Below are positions 5,093-14,909 of a DNA stretch of 23,595 nucleotides, one piece after another (the stretch's first letter is position 1; each line of letters begins with the position of its first letter). Where the stretch lies: positions 1 through 23,595 of the IMG/VR virus record IMGVR_UViG_3300031669_000237; one strand, given 5' to 3'. This DNA is from a virus. The notes beneath the pieces were generated by a model, which worked only from the letters and a program-made list of their open reading frames with translations, was not told where the DNA came from and made no database searches. Both the position numbers and the translations under genes were made by a program.

Positions 5093-5277
5093 GTTTTCTC
5101 CTTGTAGAAGTAGAATTTGCAACGCTTTCCAAAAACCCGACCTTTGGCGCATTGTGGGAATCGGACGCCGAATGCTTCCACAAAGCCAGCGTACCGGCAC
5201 CCTTTGCACGATTGCTGCTCGGCACGTTCCGCAACTAAGGCGGGATCACCGTATCTCCAGCGCTCAAGGGTGCTCAT
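5089..5277 (-). CDS. Small cysteine-containing phage protein
   Basis: A 62-residue protein with a compact cysteine pattern: CKGCRYAG (C-x-x-C) followed by FPQCAKG and a KRCKFY end. Four cysteines spaced this way suggest a small zinc-binding fold. I know similar short C-x-x-C proteins in phage accessory regions, all without known function. It overlaps the upstream methyltransferase by ATGA and the downstream gene by GTGA, so it sits inside a coupled operon. Confidence 0.75.
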   Translation of the reverse strand: MSTLERWRYGDPALVAERAEQQSCKGCRYAGFVEAFGVRFPQCAKGRVFGKRCKFYFYKEKT

Positions 5278-5867
5278 GCAAATACGATGCCTTGCTGAGT
5301 AACTTTACATGGGGGTTTTTGTAAAATCTTATAACGGGTATCTCTGGATCCAGAGATCCAAACAGTCCAGATCATATCCATTAGAGGAGAATGCCCCTTA
5401 TCAGATTCTAAAAAATTGAAATCAAGACGCCAATTCAAGGCCAGCACAAAAGCTGGAGGATGAGAAGAAAATAATTTAGTTCTCTTTACGGCGTGCCAAT
5501 ACTGTGACTTTAATAACATGGCGACAATTGGCGCTTGTGGCATCGCGTGTTCAATAAATGCAGCGCTGACGTTAAACGGAGGATTGGTAATAATGGCATC
5601 ACATGAGAACTTTGTTTTAAGAAAGTCCACATTACCTTCCCCAAAACCTGTCACCCTTAAGTCTGTAGATTTTACATGGTGGCCGTAACTCTTAATTACT
5701 TGTGCCATTGATCCATTTCCGCAAGCAGGCTCCCAAACCACAGAAATAGGAAGGTTTAGAAAAGTCATCAAAGCATGAGTTCCTTCTGGCGGCGTCGGGT
5801 AAAAATCAGATTCAACTCTTTTATTGGCCTTTGACGCGCCACCATTTATAAGATACGCATCCTTCAT
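5274..5867 (-). CDS. Phage DNA adenine/N-type methyltransferase-like protein
   Basis: A 197-residue protein with the two core SAM-methyltransferase motifs of DNA N6-adenine enzymes: EPACGNGSM (motif I, near residue 46) and DAIITNPPF (motif IV catalytic NPPF, near residue 92). FYPTPP near residue 22 is common in phage members. The catalytic NPPF is intact. It is short and lacks an obvious target-recognition domain, as usual for the phage forms, which modify phage DNA against host restriction. It starts with an ATGA overlap to the preceding 55-residue gene and ends with an ATGA overlap to the next. The sequence is more A+T-rich than the flanking genes, which may reflect separate acquisition. 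Confidence 0.82.
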   Translation of the reverse strand: MKDAYLINGGASKANKRVESDFYPTPPEGTHALMTFLNLPISVVWEPACGNGSMAQVIKSYGHHVKSTDLRVTGFGEGNVDFLKTKFSCDAIITNPPFNVSAAFIEHAMPQAPIVAMLLKSQYWHAVKRTKLFSSHPPAFVLALNWRLDFNFLESDKGHSPLMDMIWTVWISGSRDTRYKILQKPPCKVTQQGIVFA

Positions 5868-7958: not shown

Positions 7959-8077
7959 TGGACACGCCTCCAGCCAACCGCTGTGTATATCCCGCACACA
8001 AACAAAAATGGGTGGCTCACCCAGAATATCGGCCTGCAAGTCCACTTCTTTCCTTTTATGGTTTGGGTGTATTTCAT
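7955..8077 (-). CDS. 40-residue small membrane-associated protein
   Basis: The ATG (8077-8075) overlaps the PP-loop gene stop as ATGA, and the TGA overlaps the next micro-gene. The product starts MKYTQTIKGKKWTCRP and continues with a hydrophobic stretch (IFWVSHPFLFVCGIYTAVGW) ending in RRVQ. A basic N-terminus, one hydrophobic helix and a basic end look like a small inner-membrane protein. No family recognised. Confidence 0.5.
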   Translation of the reverse strand: MKYTQTIKGKKWTCRPIFWVSHPFLFVCGIYTAVGWRRVQ

Positions 8078-9000
8078 TCGCATAATCCGTAAGCTGATGA
8101 ACAAGCTGTAGGTTCAGCAAGATCACCAAGCAAATCATATTGAGTTCCACCTCGTGTCGTCTTTGACCATTCAACACGCTCATCAATTGTTTCGAAGCCG
8201 CAAGAATGCAAAAATGAAGATTTTCCAGAGCGACTCACATCGCAAACTAATTGTTCCCATTTTCTAATGCGGTCTATTTGCTCTGGGAAGCGTGCTGCAA
8301 TTTCTCTCAACTCATCTTTATTGACATTTATGCACGGCATACAGCCCACACGCCCCATGCCTGCGCTGTAAAGAGGATTAGGCTGAATTCCCCGAAGCTT
8401 GGCAAATACGAATGTATCCATCGCAGTCCAATCAACAATTGGTCTAAATGCCCACATGCGCGGCCCAATACGCTCCATTTTTTTTGCATTTAACCGCCTC
8501 TTTGATTCGTCACGCCGAACACCCTGCCAAGAAATCATAGAATCCCCGGCATCGACAATATCTAGCTGGAATTCAACAGCAAGATTTCGCTTTAATTCTT
8601 CTGTGCAAAATTGGCGACCATGCGAGGGGAAGAGTCCTTTTATCATGCATAAATCAAGGAACGGATTACCACTTGGGTACATCAATTCCGCAGCACGTCC
8701 AGCTCTTTCTGGTGTCCACGGAAACTTCGCGCTTGGAAAATAATCAGGTCCACCAGCGGCTATTTCAAGCAAGCGAATACGATGCCTTTCCATCCGCTCT
8801 GTGAAGTCGGCCTTCAGCCTAACAATCGTAATATCCAGAGCCTGCTCTAAATATGTCAAATGTTCATAAACCGCTTCATGCTCGTTGCCGGTGTCGCAGA
8901 AAATTGGAATGACATGCTCTTTTGGGCAGTTTTCAAGCGCGAGCAGTAGAGTTGCAACGCTATCTTTGCCGGTACTGCAACTCACTACGTGCTTAATCAC
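8074..9000 (-). CDS. PP-loop enzyme, phage PAPS reductase family
   Basis: A 308-residue protein from a GTG (9000-8998) eight bases after AAGGG. A GTG three codons earlier is possible. The N-terminus VVSCSTGKDSVATLL is the PP-loop S-x-G-K-D-S nucleotide-binding motif. FCDTGNEHEAVYEHL, the conserved HGRQFCTEELK and a GCMPC motif before an NKDEL helix follow the phosphoadenosine phosphosulfate reductase fold. The protein ends SSAYGLCE, a tail I know from phage members. The family adenylates or reduces sulfate in bacteria. The cysteine pairs in phage forms suggest Fe-S or zinc binding and a role in sulfur transfer or nucleic-acid modification, which is inference. Next to it lie methyltransferase and nuclease genes. 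Confidence 0.85.
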   Translation of the reverse strand: MIKHVVSCSTGKDSVATLLLALENCPKEHVIPIFCDTGNEHEAVYEHLTYLEQALDITIVRLKADFTERMERHRIRLLEIAAGGPDYFPSAKFPWTPERAGRAAELMYPSGNPFLDLCMIKGLFPSHGRQFCTEELKRNLAVEFQLDIVDAGDSMISWQGVRRDESKRRLNAKKMERIGPRMWAFRPIVDWTAMDTFVFAKLRGIQPNPLYSAGMGRVGCMPCINVNKDELREIAARFPEQIDRIRKWEQLVCDVSRSGKSSFLHSCGFETIDERVEWSKTTRGGTQYDLLGDLAEPTACSSAYGLCE

Positions 9001-9011
9001 GCTGTTCACCC

Positions 9012-9780: not shown

Positions 9781-9986
9781 GCACCCCCCTCTTTGAATGT
9801 ATCTTCCATTAAAATATCCCACTCCTTGCGAGAATACCGCACCTCTTCCCCATCCGTCCCAGCCCAGTGCGTCCCACAATTCAAGCAGACTCGGTTGACC
9901 TTCTGGACTTGCGGTTCGCCATAATGAACCCATAGCGGCCATTTATAGCGCTCGGTGTGGTGCGATGGTTTGGTGCAACAGGTCAC
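9777..9986 (-). CDS. 69-residue protein with putative zinc-binding residues
   Basis: A GTG at 9986-9984 overlaps the methyltransferase stop (GTGA) and follows AAAGGA. An earlier in-frame ATG lies deeper in the methyltransferase and is less likely. Motifs are TCCTKPSHH near the start and VCLNCGTHW in the middle, which together could bind zinc. The end is acidic (KEWDILMEDTFKEGG). No family recognised. Confidence 0.65.
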   Translation of the reverse strand: MTCCTKPSHHTERYKWPLWVHYGEPQVQKVNRVCLNCGTHWAGTDGEEVRYSRKEWDILMEDTFKEGGA

Positions 9987-10702
9987 GGAAACATCCTTTG
10001 CTGAGCCGTTGCCTGCAACACTCTCGCGCATCCGGCCTTGAAATAATCAGCATCCAACTCGCATCCAGTAAGCTCGAATCCTAGATTGTTTGCGGCGATT
10101 ACGCTACTCATTGAACCTAGATGGGTGTCTAAGATGCGCTGGCCGGGCTTGGCGTAGTTCGTTAAAAGCCATTCGTAGAGCTTTACGGGCTTTTGGGTGG
10201 GGTGGAATCGCTGCTCATTTAACGCTTTGTTACCTTGCTGCACCGATGAGCCTACTGCAGCACCTTGCATCATGCCATTCCACATATACCGAACCATTTG
10301 GATGCTTTCGTGCATTGAGCAATAAGCAATCTCAGCTTTGGAGTAATCGCTGTCATCTTTAATTTTGTCCCAAACAATTCTGCCTCCATTAAGCAAAATC
10401 GGCAAATAGTTAATCCCCCAAATAATGCGATTTTTACTCACTCGTTCAAGCTCGATGAAGTAATCCACATCAGGCGGGAAGTTATCCCAATCCTTTTTTT
10501 CATAGCCGCCATCAGCACAAAATATCTTGCTTCCATTTTTCTGCTTAACAAATTTGCTTCTGCAGGTTCCTCCGTGCTGCCCTATCCCATAAGGCGGGTC
10601 GCAAATGCAAAGGTCGAACGCCTTGTCGGGAAGCGTCCGCATGAAGTCCATGCAGTCCACGTTGTGCAGGGTAGCTTTGCCGATGATGATTGGAGCGTTC
10701 AT
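9983..10702 (-). CDS. DNA N4-cytosine/N6-adenine methyltransferase (DPPY type)
   Basis: A 239-residue protein. Motif IV is LCICDPPYGIGQHGG (DPPY near residue 34). TQKPVKLYEWLL and RILDTHLGSMSSVIAANNLG supply motif X and motif I in the circular order of the beta group, and ELTGCELDADYF is motif II. In motif I the usual D-x-F-x-G-S-G is D-T-H-L-G-S-M, with a methionine where glycine is common, as in many phage copies. The ATG follows AAGGGA. It probably protects phage DNA from host restriction. The promoter at 10798-10826 lies just upstream, so this gene heads a leftward transcript. Confidence 0.88.
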   Translation of the reverse strand: MNAPIIIGKATLHNVDCMDFMRTLPDKAFDLCICDPPYGIGQHGGTCRSKFVKQKNGSKIFCADGGYEKKDWDNFPPDVDYFIELERVSKNRIIWGINYLPILLNGGRIVWDKIKDDSDYSKAEIAYCSMHESIQMVRYMWNGMMQGAAVGSSVQQGNKALNEQRFHPTQKPVKLYEWLLTNYAKPGQRILDTHLGSMSSVIAANNLGFELTGCELDADYFKAGCARVLQATAQQRMFP

Positions 10703-10797
10703 TTGAGTTCCCTTGTCGGATTGAGTGAGGTTGTCGGCCAGTTTAAAGGACAAGCTTTAAAATGCTTGCGGGGCTCTCACACCCACCGACGGAAATA

Positions 10798-10828: not shown

Positions 10829-11236
10829 TCATTGTGCTGGAATCTCGCTGAATTTTACGTTGTGTTCAACTGCGAATGCAATCGCGTACTCAATCAAGCT
10901 GGAACCTCGTTTCTTGCTCATTAACGCCGTGGATTCGCGCAGGTTGATGAATTCCCCTTCTATCCCGGGCAAAACATCACTCCCCTCGCCTGTTGCGATC
11001 GCGTGACCCGATACCAGCAAGACCTTCCACTGGGCTGCTGTGCGTACCTTTCCAGCCCATTCAAGGCCGCTATTCGCAATGTCTGAGCAGATGGCGTGAA
11101 ACTTCGAATTTTGTTCCAAATTTCGAGACGGCGGCTTTATCTCGACCATAAAGCCATCAGGGGCCAGCATGACCTGAGCTGCGGCCAGCTTGCGCGCGGT
11201 GTCGTGAACCAGGAAAAATATCCGCTTGTCAGACAT
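10829..11236 (-). CDS. ninB: NinB-family recombination protein
   Basis: A 135-residue protein with the NinB (lambda Orf) layout: an N-terminal strand region, then KPPSRNLEQNSKFHAICSDI, a conserved middle segment, WKVLLVSGHAIATGEG, and a C-terminal SSLIEYAIAFAVEHNVKF. NinB binds single-stranded DNA and assists RecA-type and annealing recombination in place of RecFOR. Length is normal for the family. It has an AAAGG site and overlaps the methyltransferase by eight bases. It should work with the ERF annealase encoded on the other arm. Confidence 0.9.
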   Translation of the reverse strand: MSDKRIFFLVHDTARKLAAAQVMLAPDGFMVEIKPPSRNLEQNSKFHAICSDIANSGLEWAGKVRTAAQWKVLLVSGHAIATGEGSDVLPGIEGEFINLRESTALMSKKRGSSLIEYAIAFAVEHNVKFSEIPAQ

Positions 11237-12290
11237 GTTCTAGCCTTTCGTAGAGCAATCGGAATGCGGTTGCTGCCTGGAGCGGAACTTGGGCATTGCC
11301 ATAGCCTTTAAGTTGGCCCACCCTATTGGGAACATCATTAGCCACCCTACCCAATTTGGGTTCAATCTCAAACCACTCGATTCCTGTACCGCATCCGGCA
11401 GACTGTTCGTTTCTGGATTTCGTCCGGTTTTCTCCATTGTTTCCGGTAATCTCGCGCCCTTGTAATCGCGTGTGGCTGGTGTCGGCCACATCTTCATATT
11501 CGCTTCCATCCTCGCTTCGTCGTATGCTTGACACATCAGCGGGTCTATCTGCTCCCTCAAGTTCCCGGGTCTGCTCCGGTTCTTCCTGCCTCCATTCGTG
11601 GCTTGTCGTTTCATAGCTTCGTAGCTGCGGCTTGGCAGACTGTCCATCGTGTTCGGTGTTGCCCATATTTGTTTTTTCTTGGTATGTGCTGCCCGGTATG
11701 CCATTGCACTCATTTCCTCGAACGTCTCGCATGTTCTTGCCAGAATGTTCAAGTCTCCCTCGTTTGTGAATCCCCTCACCCCTAAGGTAGGCCAGCGCGA
11801 ACCACCTATCTCTCCCATGCGGAGCGCCGACATCGGATGCACGAATGCACAGCCATTGCGCGTCATACCCCATCGCGGCCAAGTCTCCGAGTACGGTTCC
11901 CAACCCGTTAGAAAGGATTGCTGATACGTTTTCCAGGAAGATGAACTCTGGTCGTACCACGCCAGCGATTCGCAAGACTTCTCGGTAAAGTCCTGACCGA
12001 GTGCCTTCTCCAAGTCCGGCCTGTTTTCCAGCGTTGCTAATATCCTGGCAAGGGAATCCCGCATGGATGCAGTCCACTCGTCCGGCGTATTCGGATGGAT
12101 CGAACAGCCGGACATCCCCTTCCCACACTGACAAGTCAGGGAACCATCCGTCTGCTGCACGTTCTCTAAGGACTTGGCAAGCGTACTTGTCCCACTCGAC
12201 CGCAACAATTGGCTTATGTCCGAGGATGAGGTCGGCAAGCAGTCCACCTCCAATTCCAGCAAAGAGGTGCATTGACCGTAGTTCATTCAT
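11229..12290 (-). CDS. C5-cytosine DNA methyltransferase
   Basis: A 353-residue Dcm-like enzyme. Motif I is HLFAGIGGGLLADL (8-21), motif II AVEWDKYAC, motif IV HAGFPCQDIS with catalytic Cys81, motif VI FIFLENV (E120), motif VIII VGAPHGRDRWF (about 154-164) and motifs IX/X GRVANDV...LKGYGNAQVP (314-336). The key residues are present. The region 170-305, the target-recognition domain, is unusually polar and low in hydrophobic residues (many N, E, R, G, S), consistent with constraint from a second frame. The ATG overlaps the upstream gene by eight bases and has AAAGG five bases upstream. A second frame is open over essentially the whole gene (separate entry). Confidence 0.9.
   Translation of the reverse strand: MNELRSMHLFAGIGGGLLADLILGHKPIVAVEWDKYACQVLRERAADGWFPDLSVWEGDVRLFDPSEYAGRVDCIHAGFPCQDISNAGKQAGLGEGTRSGLYREVLRIAGVVRPEFIFLENVSAILSNGLGTVLGDLAAMGYDAQWLCIRASDVGAPHGRDRWFALAYLRGEGIHKRGRLEHSGKNMRDVRGNECNGIPGSTYQEKTNMGNTEHDGQSAKPQLRSYETTSHEWRQEEPEQTRELEGADRPADVSSIRRSEDGSEYEDVADTSHTRLQGREITGNNGENRTKSRNEQSAGCGTGIEWFEIEPKLGRVANDVPNRVGQLKGYGNAQVPLQAATAFRLLYERLEHV
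11240..12286 (-). CDS. Second reading frame inside the C5 methyltransferase gene (WPTP / LNPxWVxWLM-type protein)
   Basis: The +1 frame relative to the methyltransferase is open for 348 codons. It begins at an ATG (12286-12284) that forms the canonical ATGA overlap with the upstream gene. Motifs in order are SSSSWKTYQQSFLTGW (114-129), SETWPRWGMTRNG (133-145), IWATPNTMDS (208-216), MWPTPATRDYKGARL (266-280) and LNPNWVGWLMMFPIGWANLK (308-327). I recall these SETWPRxGMxxxG, WPTPxxRDxKG and LNPxWVEWLMGxPxGWTDL motifs from many phage proteins annotated separately. The chance of 348 stop-free codons at equal base frequencies is about 6e-8, but the motifs are the stronger evidence. The function is unknown, and translation is not proven. 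Confidence 0.6.
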   Translation of the reverse strand: MNYGQCTSLLELEVDCLPTSSSDISQLLRSSGTSTLAKSLENVQQTDGSLTCQCGKGMSGCSIHPNTPDEWTASMRDSLARILATLENRPDLEKALGQDFTEKSCESLAWYDQSSSSWKTYQQSFLTGWEPYSETWPRWGMTRNGCAFVHPMSALRMGEIGGSRWPTLGVRGFTNEGDLNILARTCETFEEMSAMAYRAAHTKKKQIWATPNTMDSLPSRSYEAMKRQATNGGRKNRSRPGNLREQIDPLMCQAYDEARMEANMKMWPTPATRDYKGARLPETMEKTGRNPETNSLPDAVQESSGLRLNPNWVGWLMMFPIGWANLKAMAMPKFRSRQQPHSDCSTKG

Positions 12291-12474
12291 CGCCGCCTTT
12301 CAATATCTCTTCAGCTATCGCGCTGCCAATACAAGGCGAGAATCCAAACTTCTTGGCGCACGCGGCATCGTTCTGCTGCTGTTCGCGTCTGCCAGCCAAA
12401 TAGCAAGCAACCGCAAATTCACTTAGATTGCGCGATGCTTGATGTATTTGCTGGATTTGCTCGTTTGTTAGCAT
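12283..12474 (-). CDS. 63-residue protein upstream of the methyltransferase
   Basis: The ATG follows AGAGGT. The sequence starts MLTNEQIQQIHQASRNLSEF and then has VACYLAGRREQQQ and ILKGGDE. It is helical. The pattern is similar to many short phage proteins with unknown function. The stop overlaps the second-frame ATG by ATGA and the methyltransferase ATG by eight bases, so both could be coupled to it. Confidence 0.7.
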   Translation of the reverse strand: MLTNEQIQQIHQASRNLSEFAVACYLAGRREQQQNDAACAKKFGFSPCIGSAIAEEILKGGDE

Positions 12475-14002: not shown

Positions 14003-14046
14003 CATTCTCCTATTTGAGTTATGCTTCGGTTAGGGTGGCGGGAAGG
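14003..14046 (-). repeat. Gene-junction repeat, long copy 4
   Basis: Same module as 13317-13360 with one difference in the C-rich part (CCTTCCCGCCAC). Here it is the true 3' end of the 296-residue PP-loop gene, encoding its last residues PATLTEA, followed by the AGGAG of the next gene. Confidence 0.8.
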
Positions 14047-14909
14047 TTTATGGATTCCATTGGGAACAATTCGCAACTTTCTCCACACTCTGAATTAGCA
14101 TCCTCCAGAAGAACGTCCTTGTGGTATGGGGATAACTTAAACAAATCTTTAGTCGATCTGTTTTTACGAAACATCACTCTTGAGATATTGGCGCTATCTC
14201 CAGTTTGTCCAACAAGCCCATACTGTTCTTCCATGCGATTAGTAAAATCGTATATCTCTGGCATTTCCTTAATTAGCATCAAATGCTTTTTGAGAGACTT
14301 TTTCCAGCACGCCTTGCAGTTTCCGTGATGTTCCAGCAAACCAAGATCAAACGGTTGTTGCTTCCACCAATTGTTGACATCCAATTTAGTGGTTGGCAAT
14401 AAATCAACAAATGGATAGATTATGTTTTCATCAGCAGCTTTTGGATTGACGCGGCGATATTCATCCGCCCTAATACCAAGTGCCATCACATAATCACCTT
14501 TCTCTAACCCAATAGATTTCAGATATGAGTAAATGGGTGCCAGCTTCAATCTATCGGTGCAGTTTGGATAAGCAGCGTTAAAAATCCCATATTTCTTGAT
14601 GGCGTTTTCAAATGGAGAGTTTCCCGCCAAATCTTCTGCATCACCCTCTCTTGCTGCTGTTTCAAAAGTAACGAGACGATGGCGAGTGCCTTTTCCAAGT
14701 TCGGGATCAATAACAGCCTCAACCCAGACAGTTTGATAACCCCATTGCTGATCGCAGTTATGTACAAACAGCAACGATTCCTCACGCTCACGACCAGTAT
14801 TGGCAAAAACATTTATAATCATTTCGTACTTGTCGGCGTGTTCGTCCATCATGTACTTAGCCATGCGCTGCGATGTTCTTCCGGCACTGGTACTGTTTAT
14901 TAAAATCAC
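14019..14909 (-). CDS. Second PP-loop (PAPS reductase-like) protein
   Basis: A 296-residue protein from a GTG with AGGAG six bases upstream. The PP-loop is INSTSAGRTSQRM (residues 4-16). This S-x-G-R-T-S variant replaces the usual S-G-G-K-D-S and is common in one phage lineage. Further family marks are VFANTGREREESLLFVHNCD, CTDRLKLAPIYSYL, ALGIRADEYRRV and a HHGNCKACWKKS cysteine motif. The fold suggests ATP-dependent chemistry on a sulfur or nucleotide substrate. Because the lysine is arginine and the aspartate threonine, the exact reaction may differ from the gene at 8074. It is only distantly similar to that gene, so recent duplication is unlikely. Confidence 0.8.
   Translation of the reverse strand: MILINSTSAGRTSQRMAKYMMDEHADKYEMIINVFANTGREREESLLFVHNCDQQWGYQTVWVEAVIDPELGKGTRHRLVTFETAAREGDAEDLAGNSPFENAIKKYGIFNAAYPNCTDRLKLAPIYSYLKSIGLEKGDYVMALGIRADEYRRVNPKAADENIIYPFVDLLPTTKLDVNNWWKQQPFDLGLLEHHGNCKACWKKSLKKHLMLIKEMPEIYDFTNRMEEQYGLVGQTGDSANISRVMFRKNRSTKDLFKLSPYHKDVLLEDANSECGESCELFPMESINLPATLTEA

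Follow-up and report, generated by a model that had tools for sequence, protein, structure and literature searches.

A viral C5 cytosine methyltransferase gene open in two frames over its full length, most likely encoding a two-subunit enzyme

The locus studied here raises the question of what a second reading frame is doing when it stays open over the whole length of a C5 cytosine methyltransferase gene: whether it is a product of chance, an annotation error, an independent protein or a part of the methyltransferase itself. The gene lies in a stretch of viral DNA of 23,595 nucleotides (IMG/VR record IMGVR_UViG_3300031669_000237), hereafter called the window. The methyltransferase frame (A) and the frame at +1 relative to it (B) are both open along the entire gene, their starts being 4 nt and their stops 11 nt apart, and the ATG of B (12286-12284) shares bases with the TGA (12285-12283) that closes the ORF upstream (12474-12283). 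An earlier note on this DNA had described two full-length overlapping frames, a base-for-base correspondence between their motifs and the ATGA coupling of B to the gene upstream, and all of these, coordinates included, were correct. The features of the locus are collected in Table 1.

Table 1. Features of the overlapping frames A and B, in window coordinates.
Feature	Coordinates	Strand	Description or basis
Frame A	11229..12290	(-)	353 aa; C5 cytosine methyltransferase; catalytic (large) subunit, motifs I-VIII and X
Frame B, +1 to A	11240..12286	(-)	348 aa; PHROG_1008 family; read as the small/specificity subunit
Start region common to both, GAAAGGCGGCG-ATGAATGA	12282..12301	(-)	single SD-like stretch; A ATG at 12290, B ATG at 12286
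A motif I FAGIGGG, SAM binding	12243..12263	(-)	direct reading
A motif IV GFPCQDIS, catalytic Cys	12036..12059	(-)	direct reading; C81 invariant in the alignment of A relatives
A motif VI ENV	11925..11933	(-)	direct reading
A motif VIII GAPHGRDRW	11802..11828	(-)	direct reading
A residues 178-320, without a folded TRD, passenger frame	11331..11759	(-)	AF2 model; fourfold-site divergence; A position 1 fastest
A motif X LKGYGNAQVP	11283..11312	(-)	direct reading; N332, Q334 and P336 invariant in the A alignment; A-type substitutions
B beta-sheet segment SWKTYQ...SETWPRWGMTRNG, over A motifs VI-VIII	11852..11938	(-)	predicted strands; A fourfold sites 0.245 vs 0.35
B TRD interval, W-P/A-T-P repeats (WPTLGVRG, WATPNTMDSLPSR, WPTPATRDYKG)	11456..11794	(-)	B-type substitutions
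B motif IX LNPNWVGWLMMFPIGW	11318..11365	(-)	nearly invariant in the B alignment; changes frame among relatives

Frame A matched the profiles PF00145 (E 1.3e-35) and phrog_363 (E 2.6e-63), and motifs I, IV (PCQ), VI (ENV), VIII and X are all present in it. Frame B matched phrog_1008 with an E-value of 6.2e-20, as did 109 of the 111 aligned relatives, and nothing relevant was found for it among the Pfam and NCBIfam profiles. In most of the close relatives, a start codon for B lies within about 20 nt of that of A. We propose 12286 as the translation start of B; there is little constraint on the first part of this frame, and an internal start at Met 75 (12064) is possible.

The occurrence of stop codons in the +1 frame was evaluated in 56 non-redundant viral loci picked by their similarity to A alone. 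There were 62 stops, against 323 expected from synonymous-codon shuffling of A, in which both the protein and the codon usage were preserved. All of the 62 fell in the first 14% or the last 11% of A and none occurred mid-gene; by position, the nearly stop-free part of the +1 frame ran from a point about 100 codons ahead of the end of motif VIII to motif X. The +2 frame of the same loci contained 895 stops. As a control, seven single-frame C5 methyltransferases from plasmids (L259, L260, L262 and L264-L267) had 171 stops in the +1 frame, the shuffled expectation being about 172. For A of the window, only 1 in 20,000 synonymous shuffles (mean, 6.9 stops) left the +1 frame without a stop, a figure that flatters the case because the stretch had been chosen as open in B; likewise, the count of zero stops over 234 loci carries no weight, as the stretch was picked for an open B. 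The shuffles of the loci selected by A and the single-frame controls rule out a frame that is open by chance.

We then ask which frame selection acts on, using a constraint map built on 48 independent locus pairs. Over motifs I-V, the divergence at codon positions 1, 2 and 3 of A was 0.132, 0.069 and 0.329, respectively, next to 0.118, 0.075 and 0.301 in the flanking ordinary genes. Between motif VIII and motif IX, the corresponding values were 0.407, 0.145 and 0.123, and the ratio of position 3 to position 1 dropped from about 2.5 to 0.30 in the TRD, which is the signature of coding in B. Since position 1 of A, equivalent to position 3 of B, evolves fastest between the two motifs, B is the frame selected there. 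The fourfold-degenerate sites of A diverged by 0.355 over motifs I-V, 0.343 in the middle, 0.245 over motifs VI-VIII, 0.069 in the TRD interval, 0.078 over motif IX of B and 0.366 over motif X. Altogether, selection acts on A at the two ends of the gene and on B between them, and motifs VI-VIII form a zone shared by both. We infer that in the TRD interval the low-complexity A is the passenger and in the N-terminal half B; the methyltransferase frame has the look of a passenger between motifs VIII and IX, where it is disordered and fast-evolving. Misannotation of a single real frame is ruled out, because selection acts on both frames in separate regions of the gene. Tests of synonymous constraint and of stop rate had been suggested in the earlier note, and the outcome of both favours B, as seen in the fourfold sites of the TRD interval and in the observed and expected stops.

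The linkage of B to a methyltransferase was surveyed across genomes. When viral contigs were scanned with the B motif alone, at least 600 stretches matched, at least 423 of which were relatives. Among the best 80 of the latter, 76 had an overlapping C5 methyltransferase exactly one frame off, and the other four had a frame change inside the locus. The scan of bacterial and archaeal genomes with the B motif found 237 relatives, and A was one frame off in all of the best 80 of these; two further scans from actinophage versions gave 78 of 78. Judged by record titles, the genome loci were of Proteobacteria, Bacillota, Bacteroidota, Planctomycetota, Spirochaetota, Actinomycetota, Chloroflexota, Nitrospirota, Verrucomicrobiota, Gemmatimonadota, the Acidobacteriota genus Geothrix and one archaeal genome bin. 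B was never found apart from A in the loci analysed. The second frame does belong to a large family, PHROG_1008, as had been suspected, and practically all of its homologues overlap a methyltransferase located in the -1 frame.

In two plasmids of Bacteroides finegoldii (L087, 2050-3300; L088, 2150-3290), A is broken by stops, with a TGA at motif I in both and more stops later, and B stays open for 348 and 246 aa, respectively. The stops represent either a recent decay of A or a usefulness of B without A, and a two-subunit enzyme does not by itself explain a broken A beside an open B.

The structure models indicated what A is missing. In the AF2 model of A, residues 1-177 and the C-terminal helices of motif X fold, and residues 178-320 are disordered, with a pLDDT below 50 for almost all of them. 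The model aligned with M.HhaI over about 204 residues (Z 21.8, rmsd 3.4). No TRD and motif IX were found in the same polypeptide as the catalytic motifs: A has the disordered region at 178-320, and no motif IX pattern occurs in A of the window's kin. As A is without a predicted TRD and a motif IX pattern of its own, we read it as half of a PF00145-family enzyme. The AF2 model of B was moderate (pLDDT 62, pTM 0.33), comprising mostly disordered residues 1-61, a small beta sheet at about 107-148, and helices from 178 onward, including that of motif IX. No usable match and no solved fold were found for B in the PDB by sequence, Foldseek or VIA, a result that says little at a pLDDT of 62.

The best-conserved block of B, LNPxWVEWLMGxPxGW (signature L(N/T)P...LMGxP), lies on the DNA just 5' of motif X of A, in the other frame and with a gap of about 6 nt. 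In single-frame C5 enzymes, motif IX reads RKLTPRECxRLQGFPD and is followed by motif X some 20-24 residues on. Pattern, position and layout suggest that the block in B is motif IX; the direct profile match was weak, as hhalign gave P 0.033 for the motif IX tail of B and P 0.0012 for actinophage tails with motifs IX and X, both against single-frame enzymes. Three layouts were distinguished by motif pattern, most of the remaining loci being not fully typed. In 184 loci, including the close kin of the window, motif IX is in B and motif X in A. In 19 loci (e.g. L133, L208 and relatives of L094 and L098), both motifs are in B, and A usually stops soon after motif VIII. In 22 loci (e.g. L276), both motifs are in A, and B has the part with SETWP and WPTP only; A of L276 contains LNPAFVEWMMGLP and then LKALGNGVVP some 20 residues on, near the ordinary C5 spacing. 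In all but one locus of this count, the WPTP part is one frame off the catalytic motifs, and the parts are arranged along the DNA as in a normal gene. The strongest argument for B being the displaced half of the enzyme is that one and the same motif IX-like block can be supplied by either frame.

Within the TRD interval of B, P268, T269 and P270 are nearly invariant in the alignment of B relatives. The number of (W/L)PTPxxxDxKG repeats in this part varies, being about three in the window (11456-11794) and greater in L094 (2130-3626) and L091 (2320-3696), and the repeats may possibly be a modular recognition unit. One of the single-frame C5 methyltransferases, that of a Vibrio vulnificus IncC plasmid (L262, 1201-2445), is permuted, with a motif X-like GVGNAIVP preceding a C-terminal, motif IX-like LNPVFAERMLGYPDNHT; its end is matched weakly by the B profile.

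Having a motif IX-like block and the TRD interval, B is best interpreted as the other half of the enzyme to which A belongs. We therefore consider it highly likely that a single cytosine-5 DNA methyltransferase is encoded by the locus in the form of two polypeptides, of the kind known from M.EcoHK31I, with B supplying the TRD and motif IX. From A would come the half that binds SAM and carries out catalysis (motifs I-VIII), along with the C-terminal motif X helix; from B would come the target-recognition half, made up of the small beta-sheet segment, the TRD with its WPTP repeats, and motif IX. The parts would follow each other on the DNA as in an ordinary C5 methyltransferase (I-VIII, TRD, IX, X), with the TRD and motif IX one frame over. 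Ribosomes would initiate both proteins at the adjacent ATGs, that of B being the one at 12286, and the two products would assemble into an active enzyme that methylates phage or host DNA at a specific sequence, with protection against restriction as its probable role. As for its evolution, a frame change after motif VIII could have produced a layout like that of M.AquI, and a second change before motif X or motif IX the other two layouts. No fused, single-frame form of this family was seen, which may be because the beta-sheet segment of B lies over motifs VI-VIII. With good though somewhat lower confidence, we propose that a wide class of C5 methyltransferases in bacteria, an archaeal genome bin and phages obligately splits its catalytic and target halves between two frames by reciprocal overprinting, that the overlap at motifs VI-VIII locks the +1 relation, that specificity changes only via substitutions tolerated by the other frame, and that motifs IX and X have moved between the frames.

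The reading that survives best beside the split enzyme, improbable as we judge it, regards B as a genuine overprinted protein with its own job (a regulator, an antirestriction protein or a nuclease inhibitor) that sits inside a methyltransferase gene by happenstance. A conserved open frame under selection with a PHROG family of its own would suit such a protein, as would the open B beside the broken A of the two Bacteroides plasmids; however, none of the loci analysed had B without A, the motif IX-like block is part of B, as is motif X in some relatives, and A without B would have no predicted TRD or motif IX. A gene overprinted de novo is by definition related to the older gene neither in function nor by homology; B is overprinted on motifs I-VIII in its N-terminal part, but its TRD and motif IX sit where parts of the methyltransferase are missing. 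The alternatives put forward in the earlier note, a family born by overprinting or a misannotation, are thus retained in part: B is selected, one frame is usually dropped in annotation, and the N-terminal part of B, though no other part, is overprinted on methyltransferase motifs. A wholly overprinted separate protein and a plain misannotation are not, as B has the motif IX-like block and fills the TRD interval.

We see very little probability in a single polypeptide made by programmed frameshifting, from A to B after motif VIII and from B to A before motif X. Such a product would agree with the parts being collinear on the DNA with those of a single-frame enzyme, and with motif IX of B ending so close to motif X of A, but two opposite shifts would be needed per message, the open stretch of B begins long before any useful shift site, B has its own start codon beside that of A in close relatives, and the published prototype consists of two polypeptides (PMC3404938). 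That the second frame is an untranslated by-product of codon or amino-acid composition is scarcely credible: codons that seldom create +1 stops do abound in some stretches of methyltransferase genes, but the A-selected loci fall far short of the expected stops and have none mid-gene, single-frame C5 enzymes are at the null rate, and the substitution pattern is reversed in the TRD.

Altogether, the overlap is real, selected and full-length, and it most likely represents a two-subunit methyltransferase of a known kind, in a class much wider and more varied than the prototype suggests. Long same-strand overlaps are thought to be rare outside small viruses; the overlap described here spans about 350 codons, and it is found repeatedly, in loci placed in about a dozen bacterial phyla, in an archaeal genome bin and in many phages. 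Databases mostly retain one of the two frames, either the catalytic half alone, which on the split-enzyme reading has no target recognition by itself, or the recognition half as a hypothetical protein. Many records annotate A alone. B is annotated as 'g55 internal gene' in Paenibacillus phage Shelly, both frames are annotated as DNA methylase in Streptomyces phage RemusLoopin, and a Pseudomonas aeruginosa phage gene running from the B start (L095, 2939, as against 2935 for an A start) is annotated as a hypothetical protein. If annotated correctly, many 'complete' methyltransferases would become half enzymes, and this would account for any lack of activity in single-gene clones. The family is also a natural system for how overlapping frames share out selection. 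Our literature searches found no survey of the overlap and no description of the family.

Elsewhere in the window, on the minus strand, there are two phosphoadenosine-phosphosulfate-reductase-like genes (8077-9009 and 14022-14909; phrog_424) and two more DNA methyltransferase-like genes of the N6/N4 type (9986-10753 and 5277-5867; PF01555, phrog_799). With the latter two, the phage has several modification genes besides the putative split enzyme.

Among the known systems, M.EcoHK31I and its isoschizomer M.EaeI are YGGCCR methyltransferases. The small subunit of M.EcoHK31I is of about 176 aa, and Lee, Kam and Shaw are said to have described in 1995 that it is encoded within the large one in another frame, just as B of the window lies within A at +1. 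M.AquI recognises CYCGRG. A plasmid of Picosynechococcus sp. PCC 73109, a close relative of the source organism of M.AquI, carries a C5 methyltransferase gene whose 3' end is overlapped by a second ORF (L261, 1345-2455); there is no +1 stop in the annotated large gene, which is possibly a relative of M.AquI.

In M.EcoHK31I, the large subunit has motifs I-VIII and X and the small subunit motif IX (PMC3404938), and our motif search over all loci recovered this division of motifs between A and B for the window's kin, motif IX being recognised by its pattern and by its movement between frames. The two systems differ in that B of the window nearly equals A in length, with the two starts 4 nt apart, and in that substitution rates and structure place the TRD of the window in B, whereas the predicted TRD of M.EcoHK31I was assigned to the large subunit (PMC3404938). 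M.AquI is also a C5 methyltransferase split naturally into two subunits (PMC3404938), and the relatives L094, L098, L133 and L208, with motifs IX and X in B, divide the motifs similarly. However, the large subunit of M.AquI breaks off within the variable region, motifs IX and X being in the small one, whereas the frames of the window overlap across the whole gene and motif X is in A. PHROG_1008, labelled 'DNA methyltransferase', is the family that B and nearly all of its aligned relatives match, but the label is silent on its members lying at +1 inside a methyltransferase gene and being without catalytic motifs. M.HhaI shares with A the large domain and motif X, as well as the order of motifs on the DNA, whereas single-frame C5 enzymes such as M.HhaI keep the TRD, motif IX and motif X all in the catalytic frame and show an ordinary rate of +1 stops. 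Thus, the kind of enzyme is already known, and what is new is its breadth, the strict +1 lock, the three layouts and the reciprocal constraint map.
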